Positions 38,600 to 45,839 of a DNA stretch of 53,428 nt are shown in pieces. Numbering within the stretch: position 1 is the first letter of the stretch; each line of letters starts with the position of its first letter. The position numbers and the translations under genes were made by a program. The notes under the pieces were generated by a model. The model saw only the letters and a list, made by a program, of their open reading frames with translations, did not search any database and had not been told where the DNA came from. This stretch comes from Gemmatimonadota bacterium (GTDB lineage Bacteria; Gemmatimonadota; Gemmatimonadetes; Longimicrobiales; Gaopeijiaceae): contig JAJDXM010000062.1 of the NCBI GenBank assembly GCA_022823225.1, positions 1 through 53,428 on the forward strand, read 5' to 3'.

Positions 38600-39853
38600 C
38601 TAACGGGTCAGCCGATAGCCCTCCACCAGCTGAAGCCCGAGGTCGCGGTCAAAGTTGAATCCGAGGATGAGATCCTCGCCGATCCACTCGACGTGCTGCA
38701 GAGGGACGGTCACCAGGCCCAGCCACCGTCCCGCGGGGTCGAAGACACTCCACTGGCTGGCGTTGCGATCCACTTTGTCCGCGACCCACAGGTAGCCGTC
38801 CGAATCGACAAGAAGCCCGACGACTGCGGGGTGGTACTCCCGCGGTGGCAGCTGGGCCATCGCCCGCTCCCAGACGGGCCAGCCCTCGGGTGGGTAGGAC
38901 GAAGCCCAGGCCTCCTTCCATTCTTCGATCTCCGTAGCCGTGATGGGTATCGGATCGGTTTTGCGCCGGATGATTCTGCGGAGGGCCCCGGTCCTCGAAA
39001 ACTGATGAACGTCGTACCTGTCCCCATTGCTGATGTACACCGAGAGCGGGGTTCCTCCAGACGCCAACTGGGCTCCGGGCGGAAACGGCACGCGCTGGGA
39101 AGCAGGAAACGCCAGGAGGACCCTTTCGCGACCTTCCCACCAGCCGAACGACTGGGTCGAATGATCCGAATCGATCCTCATGAATCGTATCGGTCTCCGG
39201 TAGAGCTCCCCGGGTGTCGGACTCCAGTCACTCCGCCCCACCTGTACCATGAATGAGCCATCCTTCAGCGGCATATGGACCCGTTCGGGCGCGGTCAGGC
39301 CTGGCGTCCGTGTCGCGGCGAACAAAGCGCCGACGTCGATGGACCGCTGCCTCAGCAGATTGCCGGTCGGGTCGAAGTAGGCAACCGGGCCCATCATGTA
39401 ATCCCACACGACCAGGGTATCGCCAGGAAGAATCTGGAGGTGCTCCGGATAGCCGAATTCGCCGGGTCCGCGTCCCTCCCGCCCGATCGATCCAGCGAAA
39501 TCGCCGGTGGGTTCAAACAGAAGCAACTTTTTCTCACCTGCGGAGAGAATGGCCACGCCGCCATCCGAAAGGCGGGCGGCATCGCTGATATTCCAGACGA
39601 GATGCGACGAGTCGGCGGCCTCCGCCTCCCCGTTGTAGCCGCCGATAGCGAACTCCGGCTCGTGGGCAACAGTCCAGGCTTCGCCCACGCTCCATGTGGG
39701 GACATGGTTTTCGACGATTTCGATATCGGCGGAGTCTCGGATCGTGACAGCCGGCGGTTGGACGGTCGTTTCGGGATGCTCGCACGCGGTGCTTGCAACA
39801 AAAAGGGCCGTGCACGAAATGAGGGAGAGCAGCCGCTCATGTCTTCGGTGCAT
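38600..39853 (-). CDS. 6-bladed beta-propeller lipoprotein, copy 1 of the duplicated pair
   Basis: A 417-residue lipoprotein. The signal (LLSLISCTALFVASTAC) ends in a lipobox Cys, then AVTIRDSADIEIVENHVPTW, the subfamily opening. Blades include LLLFEPTGDFAGSIGREG, GRGPGEFGYPEHLQILPGD and a closing WSVFDPAGRWLGLVTVP strand. It is closely related along its length to the propeller at 43782-45026 (both have VGALFA and PITA(T/E)(E/D)IEEWK). ATG 39853 begins the signal; an upstream in-frame Met lies inside the preceding gene. It follows the nine-cysteine gene by 61 bases and presumably shares its sigma-54 promoter. Ligand unknown; possibly the cysteine-rich partner. Confidence 0.78.
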   Translation of the reverse strand: MHRRHERLLSLISCTALFVASTACEHPETTVQPPAVTIRDSADIEIVENHVPTWSVGEAWTVAHEPEFAIGGYNGEAEAADSSHLVWNISDAARLSDGGVAILSAGEKKLLLFEPTGDFAGSIGREGRGPGEFGYPEHLQILPGDTLVVWDYMMGPVAYFDPTGNLLRQRSIDVGALFAATRTPGLTAPERVHMPLKDGSFMVQVGRSDWSPTPGELYRRPIRFMRIDSDHSTQSFGWWEGRERVLLAFPASQRVPFPPGAQLASGGTPLSVYISNGDRYDVHQFSRTGALRRIIRRKTDPIPITATEIEEWKEAWASSYPPEGWPVWERAMAQLPPREYHPAVVGLLVDSDGYLWVADKVDRNASQWSVFDPAGRWLGLVTVPLQHVEWIGEDLILGFNFDRDLGLQLVEGYRLTR

Positions 39854-39914
39854 CGGTCCCACCTCTGGTCCTGGCCGCGGGGGGGAGGAAGCTATCAACT
39901 GGACAGCGTCGAAC

Positions 39915-40469
39915 CTATGGTTGCAGGACGCCAAGCGCAAGCGTGGCCGCCTGCAATTCGCCCATCAGTGCTTCTCGAACCTCTGGGACGACCGGGATGG
40001 TATGGTATGGCCGATAAGGGTCACAGGGCAAAAGGAGGTCAATGCGTCCACTCTTGGGAATGAACTCAACGGAAACACCAACTCGGTCGCGGAGCAATGC
40101 TGAGGCGACTACCGCGATATCATCGCTGTCGAGCGCCTCACGGATTTCCATCAACGCGGCCATAGCATCACCCTCGGGACCGCAGGCTATGTGGCACGGA
40201 CCCGGATCGTCATACCCGTGGCAGGTCGACGTGCGGCCGCAACGGGCACAGCTCATTTGGTCCCCGTGACCGCTTCCTTCCCATCCGCACAGCTCGCCGT
40301 TGACAATGAAATGGTGCACGAGGGGTCCACCCCCCGGATGCCAATCTCCTCCAGATTCCCAGCACCACGCGCAGGTCAAGTCTTGGTCCTGCCCCTCGAC
40401 TGGCGCGCTCCCGGCCAGGGACAAGAACAACGCGGCCATGAACAGGTACATCTTCCGTGGGATCGCCAT
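39915..40469 (-). CDS. Secreted nine-cysteine protein, copy 1
   Basis: A 184-residue exported protein of no family I know. The signal peptide (KMYLFMAALFLSLAGSAPVEG) is followed by a Cys-rich domain: CAWC (33, 36), Cys61, CARC (74, 77), Cys83, CHIAC (92, 96), then a helix-rich part and Cys149 in RIDLLLPC. All nine cysteines, and CxRCG(R/K)TSxCH and CHIACGPEGDA, recur in the paralogue at 45023-45544. Cys pairs suggest metal binding or disulfides. Start ATG 40469 follows AGGAG. A sigma-54 promoter lies at 40553-40567. The downstream neighbour is a beta-propeller lipoprotein. Confidence 0.7.
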   Translation of the reverse strand: MAIPRKMYLFMAALFLSLAGSAPVEGQDQDLTCAWCWESGGDWHPGGGPLVHHFIVNGELCGWEGSGHGDQMSCARCGRTSTCHGYDDPGPCHIACGPEGDAMAALMEIREALDSDDIAVVASALLRDRVGVSVEFIPKSGRIDLLLPCDPYRPYHTIPVVPEVREALMGELQAATLALGVLQP

Positions 40470-40552: not shown

Positions 40553-40567
40553 GCAATCACTATGCCA
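40553..40567 (-). promoter_or_regulatory. Sigma-54 (-24/-12) promoter, copy 1
   Basis: Minus-strand TGGCATAGTGATTGC: TGGCAT at -24, five bases, TTGC at -12, against consensus TGGCAC-N5-TTGC. The start would be near 40541, about 70 bases before the nine-cysteine gene. The paralogous gene has an even better match at the same distance (45626-45640). Confidence 0.75.
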
Positions 40568-40641
40568 CAACCTTCCGATCCTGTCTAAGACATTTTTTGG
40601 TCACTTAGGATGTATCATGTCCTATCCCTGGCTACCTCGAA

Positions 40642-40678
40642 GTGCCGACTGATCGGCACCAGGTACCAACTGGTCGGC
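40642..40678 (-). promoter_or_regulatory. Tandem dyad operator, probable activator binding site, copy 1
   Basis: Two related 14-mers on the same strand, GCCGACTGATCGGC (40644-40657, itself within an 18-base dyad GTGCCGACTGATCGGCAC) and ACCAACTGGTCGGC (40665-40678), begin exactly 21 bp apart, two helical turns. They lie about 75 bases upstream of the -24 element, the usual place for a sigma-54 activator site. The 313-base gap 40470-40782 holds this, the promoter and no gene. Confidence 0.65.
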
Positions 40679-40782
40679 GTTCCGCATCGAACATCAATCC
40701 ACGCCTGAGGTCGCCTGTCCGCTGGCCCTGCCGAGACGGTTCTGCGCAGCCCGGATCACTCCACCCATGCATCCGTCCATAG

Positions 40783-42012
40783 TCACAGCTTCTTCAACCG
40801 CGAATCAAGCGTCGAGCGGGGCATGTCGAGCATCCGCGCCGCCAGAGCGATGTTCCCGCCCGAACGGCTGAGAGCCTCCCGGATGTGGCGTTCCGTCGCC
40901 TCCTCAAGGGTAAGAAAGCGGTTCGGGCCGTCAAAGGGCTGGAGGTCGTCGTGCCGGTGGCCAGCGCTGTTCCCGTCAAGCAACAGATCGGCGCGGCGCG
41001 CGGCGTGGATTGCCGCGAGATCCAGTTCCGGACGTCCGCGGCACGCGCCGGCCGCCCGAATCACCACGCTGATGAGTTCCCGCACGTTGCCCGGCCAGAG
41101 TTCAGCCAGAAAATGGCGGCGCACTTCCTGCGTGATCCGCGGACATGCCGCGTTCCCGTTCGAACACGCATCGAGGGCTAGGTCGGCCAGGAGAAGCACG
41201 TCGAGCCCCCGGTTTCTCAGCGGCGGGATGATCTGCGGACGGAGCCACAACCGGTCGCGGAGGTCGGGTCGCAGGTTCTCCAGGCTCTCGGGTTGAATCG
41301 AGGCAAAGAGCCTGAGCTGCCGCGCCTTCCCGCGCCCGATGTCAACCGGCGTGTCCGAGCCCACGGGGCGGATGATCCCGTCGTCGAGCGCGGACAGGAG
41401 CTTCGCCTGGACCGGTTTCGGACACTCCCCGATGTCGTCCAGAAAGAGCGCATTGTTGGATTCGGCAGCCTTTCGGATGACACCCAGCCGCCGGAAGGTC
41501 GCGCCGGTGAACGCCCCCTTCACATGCCCGAAAAGCTCCGAATCCGCAAGGTCGGGCGATGTCGCCGCGAGCGAGAAGAGGTGTATCGTGGGGTTCCGGG
41601 CGTTGACGGCCAACTCCCGATGGATCGCCCGCATCAGCTGCCCTTTCCCTGTCCCCCGCTCCCCGATCAGCAGAACGGGGTGGGGACTCGCGGCGAGGTC
41701 TCCAATCGACGACCTGATGCCGACGATCTCGCGATGGTAGCCGACGAACGAGGTGTCCCGGTCAAACTGATCGGCTTCTTCCCGCGTCGTCCTGACCACA
41801 CCGGACAGGTAATGGACGACCCACGCGTACGCTTCGGGCAGACCTCCGGTATCGGGAGCGATGGTTCCAATCTGCTTCGCTGCGTCGGTGCCCAGTCGGT
41901 CCTCGGCGGCAAGGCGCACTGAGTCGAGCGCACGCTCCCCGCTCTGGCGGCCCCACCGCCGTGCGAGGCGCCGCAGCCATTGGTACAGGTCGACGAGTTC
42001 CTGGTCGTTCAT
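40783..42012 (-). CDS. Sigma-54-dependent transcriptional activator (NtrC-type, no receiver)
   Basis: A 409-residue bacterial enhancer-binding protein. The AAA+ domain (about 88-325) has Walker A GERGTGKG (117-124), the sigma-54 loop GAFTGA (166-171), Walker B ALFLDD (188-193; usually DE), an arginine-finger region LRPDLRDRLWLRP, and WPGNVRELISVV. A Fis-type HTH ends the protein (ATERHIREALSRSGGNIALA and onward to the C-terminus). The N-terminal 87 residues are helical and lack a receiver, PAS or GAF signature, so the signal is unknown. It lies between two sigma-54 promoters and its 3' end is 105 bases from the copy 1 operator, making it the likely regulator of both nine-cysteine operons. Confidence 0.9.
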   Translation of the reverse strand: MNDQELVDLYQWLRRLARRWGRQSGERALDSVRLAAEDRLGTDAAKQIGTIAPDTGGLPEAYAWVVHYLSGVVRTTREEADQFDRDTSFVGYHREIVGIRSSIGDLAASPHPVLLIGERGTGKGQLMRAIHRELAVNARNPTIHLFSLAATSPDLADSELFGHVKGAFTGATFRRLGVIRKAAESNNALFLDDIGECPKPVQAKLLSALDDGIIRPVGSDTPVDIGRGKARQLRLFASIQPESLENLRPDLRDRLWLRPQIIPPLRNRGLDVLLLADLALDACSNGNAACPRITQEVRRHFLAELWPGNVRELISVVIRAAGACRGRPELDLAAIHAARRADLLLDGNSAGHRHDDLQPFDGPNRFLTLEEATERHIREALSRSGGNIALAARMLDMPRSTLDSRLKKL

Positions 42013-42345: not shown

Positions 42346-43485
42346 TCACTTCCAGTTTCCGGATAGAGACGAGGGGCGGAAACGAGGAGAACGGAGCTCC
42401 CAGAGAGGCACCCCAAGGTCGTCGGCCGCGAGATGTAGGATAGTCCCGTCGGGGAACAGTCGGTCCATTGCCCCGTCGAACTTCTGGCTCGCGACAACTT
42501 CATTGACCGCCAAGTCAATGACCTCGACAATTGTATCGAATTCACTGTCGAGGAGATCTGCCCGTTTTGGAACCGGAGGCGCGTCCGGGGCCGGGGGAGT
42601 CCAACTCGGATCCTTTATAATCACAATGGTCCACAGGAGCGAACCGTCTAGATAGATGTCTGACACGTAGGGGGAGCCCGATACTTCTCGTGAACTTGAT
42701 CTCTGGGGAAACCAATCGGCCTCACGGGTCCACACCGCTTCAAGCGAGCGTCCGTTCCAACGCTCGATCCGATACGGTCTACCCGATGTCGAAGTGGACA
42801 GGAAACGGCTGTCGTCGAGAATCATCATTCTCCGAAACCCGACCCCCTCCGTCCCGGGTATGAAGTTCACCTCCGGACCAAACGACTCAAGAATCGTCCC
42901 GCTGATGTGCACGAGATGAAACGGCAGGCCTGCCTGTTCGGGCGTCTGGATGGATGCCGCGACCAAGAGCACGGAGTCGTTGAGTGGATGCGCCTGATTG
43001 ATCCTGTGAGGAAAGTAGCGCGACTCCACGAAGGTCCCGTCCTCTTCCAGGATCGAGAGGCGTACGTTCGCTTGGTCGAACACGACCACCCGGCGGTTGG
43101 GCAACTCGACGATAGGCATCGGGTCCACGTATTCGCCCGGCCCCTCGCCCTCCTGCCGGATAGTGAACTTGAGCTCGCCATCCGATGTATAGAAGAACAT
43201 TTCGGCCGCGCCCGCACCGAAATCGTGAACATAGGTCCGGCCACTTCTCGATCGCGTCACATAGGCGCTCCCCGTTAGTAGATCGTCGCCGTCGTAGTCT
43301 CCACCGAGCACGGCCACCGTCTCGAGACTGATGCAATCCCGGCACATGTCCGAGGCCTCTTTCAACTCGATGATCTCTTGGCCAGCCAACCCGGGCGAAG
43401 CCAGTCCGACGAGGAGAGCACCGACAATTGATGCAGGAGTACCCTTCGACTTCAAGGGTCCAGTACATCGAGAAACCTTACTCAT
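42346..43485 (-). CDS. 6-bladed beta-propeller protein, CRDC subfamily
   Basis: A 379-residue exported protein. Signal peptide ASIVGALLVGLASPGLAG, cleavage near GLAGQE, then EASDMCRDCISLETVAVLGG, matching the entry strand of the 4700-5794 propeller. Blades include FFYTSDGELKFTIRQEGEGP and RLSILEEDGTFVESRYFP. It has no lipobox. It sits between an IS110-like and an IS1595-like remnant, so it may have been brought in or isolated by transposition. No clear ribosome-binding site precedes ATG 43485. A candidate promoter lies about 200 bases upstream (43695-43723) and a dyad like the sigma-54 operators at 43648-43661. Confidence 0.7.
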   Translation of the reverse strand: MSKVSRCTGPLKSKGTPASIVGALLVGLASPGLAGQEIIELKEASDMCRDCISLETVAVLGGDYDGDDLLTGSAYVTRSRSGRTYVHDFGAGAAEMFFYTSDGELKFTIRQEGEGPGEYVDPMPIVELPNRRVVVFDQANVRLSILEEDGTFVESRYFPHRINQAHPLNDSVLLVAASIQTPEQAGLPFHLVHISGTILESFGPEVNFIPGTEGVGFRRMMILDDSRFLSTSTSGRPYRIERWNGRSLEAVWTREADWFPQRSSSREVSGSPYVSDIYLDGSLLWTIVIIKDPSWTPPAPDAPPVPKRADLLDSEFDTIVEVIDLAVNEVVASQKFDGAMDRLFPDGTILHLAADDLGVPLWELRSPRFRPSSLSGNWK

Positions 43486-43635: not shown

Positions 43636-43647
43636 CCGTCACCGACT

Positions 43648-43661
43648 GCCGACTGGTCGGC
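43648..43661 (-). promoter_or_regulatory. Single dyad resembling the sigma-54 activator operator
   Basis: GCCGACTGGTCGGC is a dyad (GCCGA, 4 bases, TCGGC) that shares ACTGGTCGGCGTTCC with the second half-site at 40670-40684. It lies 163 bases before the 43485 start, near the 175-base distance at the two complete operators. I see no -24/-12 promoter between it and the gene. Confidence 0.4.
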
Positions 43662-43694
43662 GTTCCCCCCGTGCGCCCTCTCCAACCGGGACGC

Positions 43695-43781: not shown

Positions 43782-45026
43782 TTAGCGGCTCAGCCGATAC
43801 CCCTGCACCACCTCCACCCCGGTATCCGGATCCGTGTTCACCCCGAGAATCAGATCCTCGCCGATCCACTCGACGTGCTCCAGCGGTATCGCCAGGGTCC
43901 CCAGCCAGCGCCCGGCCGGGTCGAAGACGCTCCACTCGCTCCGTGCGCGATCCTTCCTGTCCGCAACCCACAGATAGCCCTCCGAATCGACAAGGAGTCC
44001 CACAACGGGCGGGCGGAACTCCCGGGGCGGCAGCTTCGCCATGGCTTCGTCCCAGAGCTCCCATTTCCAGGGAAGCGAGAACCCGGCCTTCCACTCTTCG
44101 ATGTCTTCGGCCGTAATCGGAATCGGATCCGCCGTGCGCCGGATGATACGGCTTAGGGTTCCGGTGGTGGAGAACCGTTGCACTTCGTATTGGTCGCTAT
44201 TGGTAATGTATACCGAGGGCGGCCCAACACCTGCCGCCAAATGGACGCCAAATGCAAATGGCACCAATGTTGTCAGGCCTTCCTGCAAGACAACTTCCCT
44301 CCGCGCCCACTGCCCCAGCGAATGAACCGTGTACGAGGAATCGATCCTGAGGAACTCTATCGGCGATCTGAAGGGGACTCCAACTGGGAGTGGGGAGTCG
44401 ACCGGGCTGAGGAAAGTCTGGACAATGAACGACCCATCTCCCAGTGGCAAGAACACTGATTCGGGCACTCGCTCGCTCACTCTCCTCACTGTGGCAAACA
44501 GCGCACCGACATCGATCCGCCAGTCCCTCAGCAGCTGTCCGGAGGGATCGAAATAGCTGATCGGCCCAAGCATGAAGTCCCAAACCACAAGGGTATCGCC
44601 CGGCAGAACCTGGAGGTGCAGAGGATGGCCGAATTCACCCGGTCCACGCCCCTCCCGCCCGATCGATCGCGCGAATTCGCCGGTCCGCTCGAAGAGAAGC
44701 AGCTTCTTTTCCCTGCTGGAAAGCACCGCCACCCTTCCGTCCGAAAGCGGAGCGACATCGGCGACCGACCAGACAAGGTGACTGGAATCGGGGGTTTCGC
44801 CTGCGCCCCGGTAGCCGCCGATGACGATTTCGGGCTCGGTCGCCACCGTCCAGGAGTCGCCCTCGCCCCACGACGGTGCGTCGTTCTCCACGATTTCGAT
44901 GTCCGCGGAGTCGCGGATGGTGACGGCTGGGGCGAGGGGCGTGGTGTCCGTCCGGTCGCATCCAGTCGCTGCGATGACCGACGCCGCAACGCCGATTGGC
45001 AGTACCTGTGGCGGGAATCGAATCAT
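43782..45026 (-). CDS. 6-bladed beta-propeller lipoprotein, copy 2 of the duplicated pair
   Basis: A 414-residue lipoprotein whose signal (LPIGVAASVIAATGC) ends in a lipobox Cys, followed by AVTIRDSADIEIVENDAPSW. Blades match copy 1 closely, for example GRGPGEFGHPLHLQVLPGD against GRGPGEFGYPEHLQILPGD, and WSVFDPAGRWLGTLAIP. Its ATG overlaps the stop of the nine-cysteine gene (ATGA), so the two are translationally coupled. An internally deleted copy of this gene lies at 45840-45953. Exported and probably outer-membrane- or inner-membrane-anchored by lipid; ligand unknown. Confidence 0.78.
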   Translation of the reverse strand: MIRFPPQVLPIGVAASVIAATGCDRTDTTPLAPAVTIRDSADIEIVENDAPSWGEGDSWTVATEPEIVIGGYRGAGETPDSSHLVWSVADVAPLSDGRVAVLSSREKKLLLFERTGEFARSIGREGRGPGEFGHPLHLQVLPGDTLVVWDFMLGPISYFDPSGQLLRDWRIDVGALFATVRRVSERVPESVFLPLGDGSFIVQTFLSPVDSPLPVGVPFRSPIEFLRIDSSYTVHSLGQWARREVVLQEGLTTLVPFAFGVHLAAGVGPPSVYITNSDQYEVQRFSTTGTLSRIIRRTADPIPITAEDIEEWKAGFSLPWKWELWDEAMAKLPPREFRPPVVGLLVDSEGYLWVADRKDRARSEWSVFDPAGRWLGTLAIPLEHVEWIGEDLILGVNTDPDTGVEVVQGYRLSR

Positions 45027-45544
45027 TGACCGTCAATCGGCTCCTGGAGTTCTTCAATCAGCGCTTCGCGAAGTTCAGGTACGACCGGGATAGTACGGAA
45101 CGGCTCGTTGGGTTCGCAAGGAAGGAGTAGATCGATGCGGCCACCCTCGGGTATGAACTCCACGAGAACGCCCGGCCTCTTGCTTGTCAACGCTGATGCG
45201 ACTACGGCGATGTCCTCCGCTTCCAGAGCCTGCTGGATTTCGGTCAGTGCTGCCACGGCATCGCCTTCCGGACCGCAGGCGATATGGCAAGAGCCGGGCC
45301 AAGGTGCGGCATGACATTCTGAGGTCTTCCCGCATCGAACACACTGAGGAGGAATCGGGTGGCCCGGGTAGCTCCCCTCCGAACCGCAATCTCGTCCATT
45401 CATAGTGAAAAGGTGTTCGCCGTCTTCCTCAATGCACCACCAGCATACCACCTCCCCGAGAAACTGCGCCTCCGCCGGCGAACTCGCCGCCAAGAACACG
45501 AACAGCGTGGCTCCGAACAGGTACATCCTTCTTGCGATCCCCAT
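45023..45544 (-). CDS. Secreted nine-cysteine protein, copy 2
   Basis: A 173-residue exported protein. Signal peptide RMYLFGATLFVFLAASSPAEA, cleavage near AEAQ, then CWWC (34, 37), Cys53, CVRC (68, 71), Cys77 in SECH, CHIAC (86, 90) and Cys143 in RIDLLLPC. All nine cysteines align with copy 1, as do GPEGDA(M/V)AAL, DDIAVVASAL-like AEDIAVVASAL and TIPVVPE(V/L)REAL. Loops differ in length between cysteines 2 and 4. Start ATG 45544 follows AGAGGAG. It ends in an ATGA overlap with the propeller gene. Family unknown. Confidence 0.7.
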   Translation of the reverse strand: MGIARRMYLFGATLFVFLAASSPAEAQFLGEVVCWWCIEEDGEHLFTMNGRDCGSEGSYPGHPIPPQCVRCGKTSECHAAPWPGSCHIACGPEGDAVAALTEIQQALEAEDIAVVASALTSKRPGVLVEFIPEGGRIDLLLPCEPNEPFRTIPVVPELREALIEELQEPIDGQ

Positions 45545-45625
45545 GACATTCTCCTCTGTGAGGGTTGTAGTGCCGCCCAACGGAACGAGCCCTTCCCTGA
45601 GACGGCGTTGCGTGTCGTGAACTAA

Positions 45626-45640
45626 GCAATTGGCGTGCCA
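45626..45640 (-). promoter_or_regulatory. Sigma-54 (-24/-12) promoter, copy 2
   Basis: Minus-strand TGGCACGCCAATTGC followed by TT is a perfect match to TGGCACG-N4-TTGCW. Transcription would start near 45614, about 70 bases before the nine-cysteine gene, the same distance as at copy 1. Confidence 0.85.
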
Positions 45641-45717
45641 CACTCGCCGATAGTCCATAAGACCTGTTCCGGACAACTACTTAGCCTCCTGGTGGCGATC
45701 AGTCGTCCTTCCTCGAC

Positions 45718-45754
45718 GTGCCGACTGGCCGGCACCGGGTACCGACTGGTCGCC
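45718..45754 (-). promoter_or_regulatory. Tandem dyad operator, probable activator binding site, copy 2
   Basis: GCCGACTGGCCGGC (45720-45733, within GTGCCGACTGGCCGGCAC) and ACCGACTGGTCGCC (45741-45754) again begin exactly 21 bp apart. They lie 78 bases upstream of the -24 element. Compared with copy 1 the dyad arms have changed while symmetry is kept. Confidence 0.65.
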
Positions 45755-45839
45755 ACTTTGCCCTCGCCATGCGGAGACGGTTCTGGCGCAGTCGGCGGGA
45801 TTTTCTACATGGCACACGAGGTGCTGAATTGACCGACTC

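Follow-up and report, generated by a model that had tools for sequence, protein, structure and literature searches.

What does a pair of sigma-54-like elements mean when each stands before one of two paralogous genes and a gene for a sigma-54 activator (bacterial enhancer-binding protein, bEBP) lies between the two units? This arrangement occurs in a 53,428-nucleotide stretch of an uncultured Gemmatimonadota genome, the whole of which was analysed and is called the window below. The original prediction had placed both sites at equivalent positions beside the activator gene and had called the downstream genes paralogues; both statements hold, the encoded proteins sharing 62% identity. The stronger site, promoter B, reads TGGCACGCCAATTGCT on the minus strand (45625–45640) and matches TGGCACGN4TTGCW with 0 mismatches, as had been said of positions 45626–45640, and it is the only perfect consensus match in the 4.19-Mb assembly. 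From a first-order Markov simulation one would expect 0.003 perfect matches in the window and about 0.2 in the genome, and 0/100 dinucleotide shuffles of the window produced one, in keeping with the claim that a full match by chance is expected far less than once.

The second site, promoter A (TGGCATAGTGATTGCG), is also real, with GG, GC and the spacing between them intact. It departs from the consensus at three places rather than at the single one first claimed (position 6, C>T; position 7, G>A; and the final W, which is G), and agrees with it at 9/11 core positions. Because TGGCN7TTGC alone is expected 1.2–1.7 times per window, promoter A owes its credibility solely to where it lies and what surrounds it. 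It overlaps a sigma-70-like match at 9 of 12 positions (TAGACA-17-CATAGT with a TG extension), which is not conserved in the relatives. When +1 is placed 12 nt past the C of the -12 element for both predicted promoters, the leaders come to about 70 nt for B and about 72 nt for A, in agreement, given this assumed +1, with the leaders of about 70 bases that had been proposed for both paralogues.

Consensus matches of this kind carry limited weight in the genome as a whole. The G+C content of the window is 67%, and sites with at most one mismatch to the consensus number 15 in the genome, compared with 36 for a reversed-pattern control; hence a consensus match alone is weak evidence in a GC-rich genome, and we sought independent evidence. 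The genome-wide scan for -24/-12 elements, which used consensus patterns rather than a matrix, returned a single perfect match, promoter B; consensus-only scanning, showing no enrichment over the control, was dropped as evidence. The original prediction rated the second site too highly, and likewise what a match to the consensus can prove by itself. The rpoN gene is present, and it encodes a complete RpoN with activator-interacting (AID), core-binding (CBD) and DNA-binding (DBD) domains and the RpoN box ARRTVAKYRD.

The strongest evidence that these are sigma-54 promoters is a feature absent from that prediction. Upstream of each site lie two TGCCGAC-NN-GTCGGCA palindromes whose starts are 21 bp apart, equivalent to two helical turns, the nearer palindrome ending 76–79 bp before the -24 element (Table 1). 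Pair B shows 0 mismatches in the pair-pattern search. At no more than 2 mismatches, the single palindrome is found 5 times in the window against 0.69 expected, while the combined enhancer-promoter pattern has exactly 2 matches in the window's own genome (G000), namely units A and B, and 0 for the reversed control. At glnA, the sites for NtrC are found at about -90 and -140 (PMC7408454), and reconstructed sigma-54 regulons as a rule have multiple upstream activating sequences (UAS) ahead of the sigma-54 site (PMC6615313). The upstream enhancers here take the form of conserved predicted palindrome pairs at a fixed distance. For the orphan palindrome at 43647–43662, a -24/-12 element at the usual distance was sought and none was detectable; it is perhaps what is left of a unit that has lost its promoter.

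The enhancer pair and promoter recur together in three other members of the genus (G003, G010 and G017, all Gemmatimonadota), each of which was reached by a different route. With 0 mismatches, the pair pattern occurs at five places in 121 family genomes (A and B in G000, and in G003, G010 and G017), each with a sigma-54 site, a specificity that is partly fitted since the pattern was designed after these sites had been seen. Matches to the combined pattern in other genera showed no excess over the control, lay mostly in unrelated contexts and were discarded. A footprint of the five regulatory regions shows that TGGC and TTGC are invariant in 8/8 columns, compared with 14/80 spacer columns (Fisher p 5e-6), and that the proximal palindrome is invariant in 10/14 (Fisher p 1e-4 against the same spacer). 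Between A and B, spacer identity has drifted to 38/80 while the core is kept at 8/8. This element-specific conservation amid drifted spacers rules out chance and speaks against recent duplication as the sole cause.

Other observations concern the same regions. Between the enhancers and the promoter (40567–40640 and 45640–45715 in the window, and the corresponding parts of L056, L074 and L095), AAGT stands 39–42 bp before the -24 element and (C/A)TTA stands 21–22 bp before it, each in 5/5 sequences; this third conserved element may be a site for a bending protein or a second regulator. In G017, a tandem copy of the Cys-rich target is directly preceded by a second enhancer pair (G017:C125:580-614, L129), which has no -24/-12 element. 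A sigma-54-like site near the G017 activator (L057 8702) has no enhancer pair and was treated as unproven.

The presumed regulator, encoded at 40783–42012, matches Sigma54_activat (104 bits), an AAA lid and, at its C terminus, the Fis-type HTH_8 (40.6 bits), and it contains the Walker A sequence GERGTGKG and a GAFTGA loop located in ELFGHVKGAFTGA. The acidic pair of its Walker B motif is DD, as in all four orthologues (40783–42012, L056, L057 and L058), compared with DE in a solved NtrC-family relative, and the G003 and G017 activators have GSFTGA in place of GAFTGA. Residues 1–85 matched no Pfam or NCBIfam domain, and the protein has none of the known regulatory domains (receiver, GAF, PAS, V4R) that are optional in the bEBP class. 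Activators of this class without a known regulatory domain exist, and such an absence does not disqualify the protein. A structural model built from the single sequence reached a pLDDT of 44, too poor for use.

Orthologues of this activator are found in 3/153 other genomes of the order, at 56% identity in G003 and G017 and 37% in G014, and they have similar gene neighbourhoods; the genes for activator and Cys-protein share one contig in G003 and one genome in G017. The genomes with activators 56–100% identical (G000, G003 and G017) share the palindrome core CCAGTCGG and the recognition helix PRSTL. The G014 activator has HRSTL instead, and its genome has no CCAGTCGG-type palindrome; a perfect TGGCACGACAATTGC lies downstream of that 37% activator, between it and a secreted-protein gene. 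In G010 the enhancers have a slightly different core and the assembly contains only a fragment of a G014-type activator, so that the regulator there is missing, unassembled or different. From these sequence comparisons we strongly infer that the palindromes belong to the 40783–42012 activator. At G010:C38:15961-16134 (L137) and G019:C52:10674-10772 (L138), pieces of the N-terminal domain of the activator are present and the remainder is missing; the G019 piece adjoins a propeller gene.

The proteins encoded immediately downstream of the two promoters have the motif C-x-W-C...CxxCG...CH...CHxxCG, in which C34, C37, H44, C53, C68, C71, C77, H78, C86, H87 and C90 are invariant. Sequence searches of Pfam, NCBIfam and the PDB matched no family, viral contigs searched alongside contained no relative, and a structure search gave no fold match with a low-confidence model (pLDDT 61, only the C-terminal half being confident). 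A propeller gene follows each target, and both (43782–45026 and 38600–39892) score above the PF17170 cut-off. The first of these is placed in the operon of target B because its start overlaps the end of the target gene. In G003 and G017 the targets, again followed by a propeller, belong to another type of small, secreted protein with Cys residues. Most other Cys-rich paralogues in the genus have no sigma-54 site, and we therefore rejected a general linkage of the family to sigma-54.

The segment 45842–45968, immediately upstream of enhancer pair B, joins the start of a propeller gene (91% over 82 nt) to its end (94% over 36 nt). We read this as the scar of a deleted propeller copy, a sign that the cassette has been duplicated and lost. 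In genome G019, a perfect TGGCACGAAAATTGC (G019:C182, L130 392-406) precedes a short secreted relative of the Cys-rich family, and a different, 42-bp perfect palindrome lies about 130 bp upstream, perhaps marking a sister system with another activator.

Table 1. Predicted regulatory features and genes of the window, with the corresponding sites in same-genus relatives.
Feature	Position	Strand	Remarks
Target A, secreted Cys-rich protein paralogous to target B	39915–40469	-	184 aa
Six-bladed beta-propeller (DUF5128, PF17170)	38600–39892	-	30.3 bits; downstream of target A
Sigma-54 promoter A, TGGCATAGTGATTGC	40553–40567	-	predicted +1 about 40541; footprint; overlaps weak sigma-70-like match
Enhancer pair A	40643–40679		palindromes 40643–40658 and 40664–40679; starts 21 bp apart; centres about -110 and -131
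Sigma-54 activator (bEBP), presumed regulator	40783–42012	-	409 aa; AAA+ with GAFTGA, Fis-type HTH
Propeller-like protein	42346–43485	-	22.1 bits, just under the cut-off of 22.9; between operon B and activator
Orphan enhancer palindrome (TGCCGACTGGTCGGCG)	43647–43662		about 160 bp upstream of propeller gene 42346–43485
Six-bladed beta-propeller (DUF5128, PF17170)	43782–45026	-	37.8 bits; downstream of target B
Target B, secreted Cys-rich protein	45026–45544	-	173 aa; putative signal peptide; no Pfam/NCBIfam family
Sigma-54 promoter B, -24/-12 element TGGCACGCCAATTGC	45626–45640	-	predicted +1 about 45614; consensus match and five-sequence footprint
Candidate third, weaker enhancer half-match, unit B (GTGGCGATCAGTCG)	45692–45705		inverted repeats I1 and I12; not conserved in relatives
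Enhancer pair B	45719–45755		palindromes 45719–45734 and 45740–45755; starts 21 bp apart; centres about -113 and -134
G003 (L056), promoter TGGCATGGGAATTGC	palindromes 144 and 165; promoter 259		found via activator orthologue
G010 (L074), promoter TGGCACGCCAGTTGC	palindromes 10866 and 10887; promoter 10980		found via Cys-rich protein
G017 (L095), enhancer pair and promoter			found via combined pattern

It is very probable that A and B are true sigma-54 promoters, as was originally proposed, an interpretation supported by the complete RpoN, the activator with its GAFTGA and Fis motifs, the enhancer pairs at fixed spacing and the recurrence in relatives. We put at nearly nine in ten (about 0.88) the probability that they serve two paralogous operons switched by the 40783–42012 activator acting on the palindrome pairs. 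By analogy with established sigma-54 biology, RNA polymerase-sigma-54 would be held in a closed complex at the -24/-12 element, and activator dimers would bind both palindromes (about -110 and -131, on the same DNA face) through the Fis HTH. The activator would then oligomerise and reach sigma-54 by DNA looping through its GAFTGA loop, and ATP-driven opening of the promoter, with transcription from the predicted start, would ensue once its N-terminal domain received a signal. The two operons, each a Cys-rich secreted protein followed by a propeller, make up all of the regulon that could be detected in this genome, and the system most likely represents a small sigma-54 regulon, two operons in size and restricted to the genus. 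Published sigma-54 regulons comprise one to six operons per activator, usually clustered with the activator gene (PMC6615313). Points that weigh against our explanation are the imperfect promoter A (9/11) with its sigma-70-like overlap, the lack of an intact activator in G010, the DD of Walker B, the GSFTGA of G003 and G017, and the lack of a sigma-54 site at most other Cys-rich paralogues.

Other readings of the locus keep some of these elements and reassign the rest. The promoters could be real and another activator of the genome could serve both them and the palindromes, as G000 does encode other activators and G010 has an enhancer pair and promoter with no intact orthologue of the 40783–42012 protein. 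We consider this very unlikely, since in G000 the activator sits between the only two regulated units, and the genomes with the CCAGTCGG core are exactly those with the closely similar, PRSTL-bearing activators, whereas G014, with HRSTL, has no such palindrome. It is very unlikely, in turn, that only B is a sigma-54 promoter and A a decaying duplicate read by a housekeeping sigma factor. The three departures of A and the sigma-70-like string over it would fit such decay; however, that string is unconserved in relatives, A has retained TGGC, TTGC, the spacing and both palindromes despite the drift of its spacer, and TGGCAT-N5-TTGC is the sigma-54 consensus of Clostridiales (PMC6615313).

A palindrome by itself does not distinguish an activator from a repressor, and these could bind a repressor unrelated to sigma-54 that acts at another promoter. 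Their location 110–134 bp upstream of the predicted start, which is typical of enhancers, and not over a promoter, makes this highly improbable. Chance, with consensus-like strings arising from GC-rich sequence and the upstream likeness left by recent duplication only, gains some credit from the one-mismatch matches, no commoner than in the reversed control, and from the frequency of TGGCN7TTGC; yet we regard its probability as close to negligible. Chance or recent duplication alone is rejected by the footprint statistics: conservation is specific to the elements in four genomes with diverged spacers, the enhancer-promoter distance is fixed, and the combined pattern is unique genome-wide. Apart from this locus, the stop codon of a different activator gene is directly followed by a sigma-54 consensus site in G000 (TGGCACGGGTATTGCG, G000:C87:27794-27809, L025) and in G019 (TGGCACGGGTGTTGCA, G019:C196, L131 5147-5161), where an AAA ATPase gene follows; these sites are candidates for a second, unrelated sigma-54 switch.

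The switch that we propose, a sigma-54 promoter pair under the 40783–42012 activator, is of a well-known type, while the regulon, the enhancer motif, the activator subfamily and the targets are new. It resembles NtrC/NifA-type regulons such as glnAp2-NtrC in its -24/-12 promoters, tandem palindromic enhancers (at about -110/-131 here) and AAA+/Fis activator encoded nearby, but differs from them in its TGCCGAC-NN-GTCGGCA palindrome, in an activator with no receiver domain, and in targets that lie outside nitrogen or carbon metabolism, namely secreted Cys-rich proteins and propellers. The PEP-CTERM/PrsR system reportedly also ties a sigma-54 activator to secreted surface proteins and is in this respect similar; in contrast, the present activator has no receiver domain and reaches 138.9 bits with PEP_resp_reg, for which the cut-off is 502.6, and none of the PEP-CTERM models of Pfam or NCBIfam matched the targets. 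The single-activator regulons of Clostridiales likewise have one activator, one to six usually clustered operons and multiple UAS upstream (PMC6615313), whereas here the phylum and UAS motif are different, the N-terminal domain matches no family and the targets are non-metabolic. Predicted secreted or envelope targets agree with the view that sigma-54 governs the exterior of bacteria (Francke et al. 2011, PMC3162934), to which this locus adds a Cys-rich family with no Pfam or NCBIfam model. Our search of the open-access literature found no described sigma-54 system of this sort in uncultured Gemmatimonadota.

A more far-reaching idea, which we consider unlikely, is that of a cassette confined to the genus. 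Its activator, with a DD Walker B and a sensor domain of an undescribed type at the N terminus, would reserve sigma-54 for the secreted Cys-rich proteins and the propellers that partner them, and the whole might serve secretion or communication, the secreted product or its partner feeding back on the activator. The analysis provides, for an uncultured Gemmatimonadota, a predicted set of promoter, enhancer, activator and target in which each element is independently conserved, and further members can be sought with the signature of palindromes and promoter. In addition, it links a secreted Cys-rich family with no assigned function to a mode of regulation, and the signal of the activator would tell when these proteins are needed.
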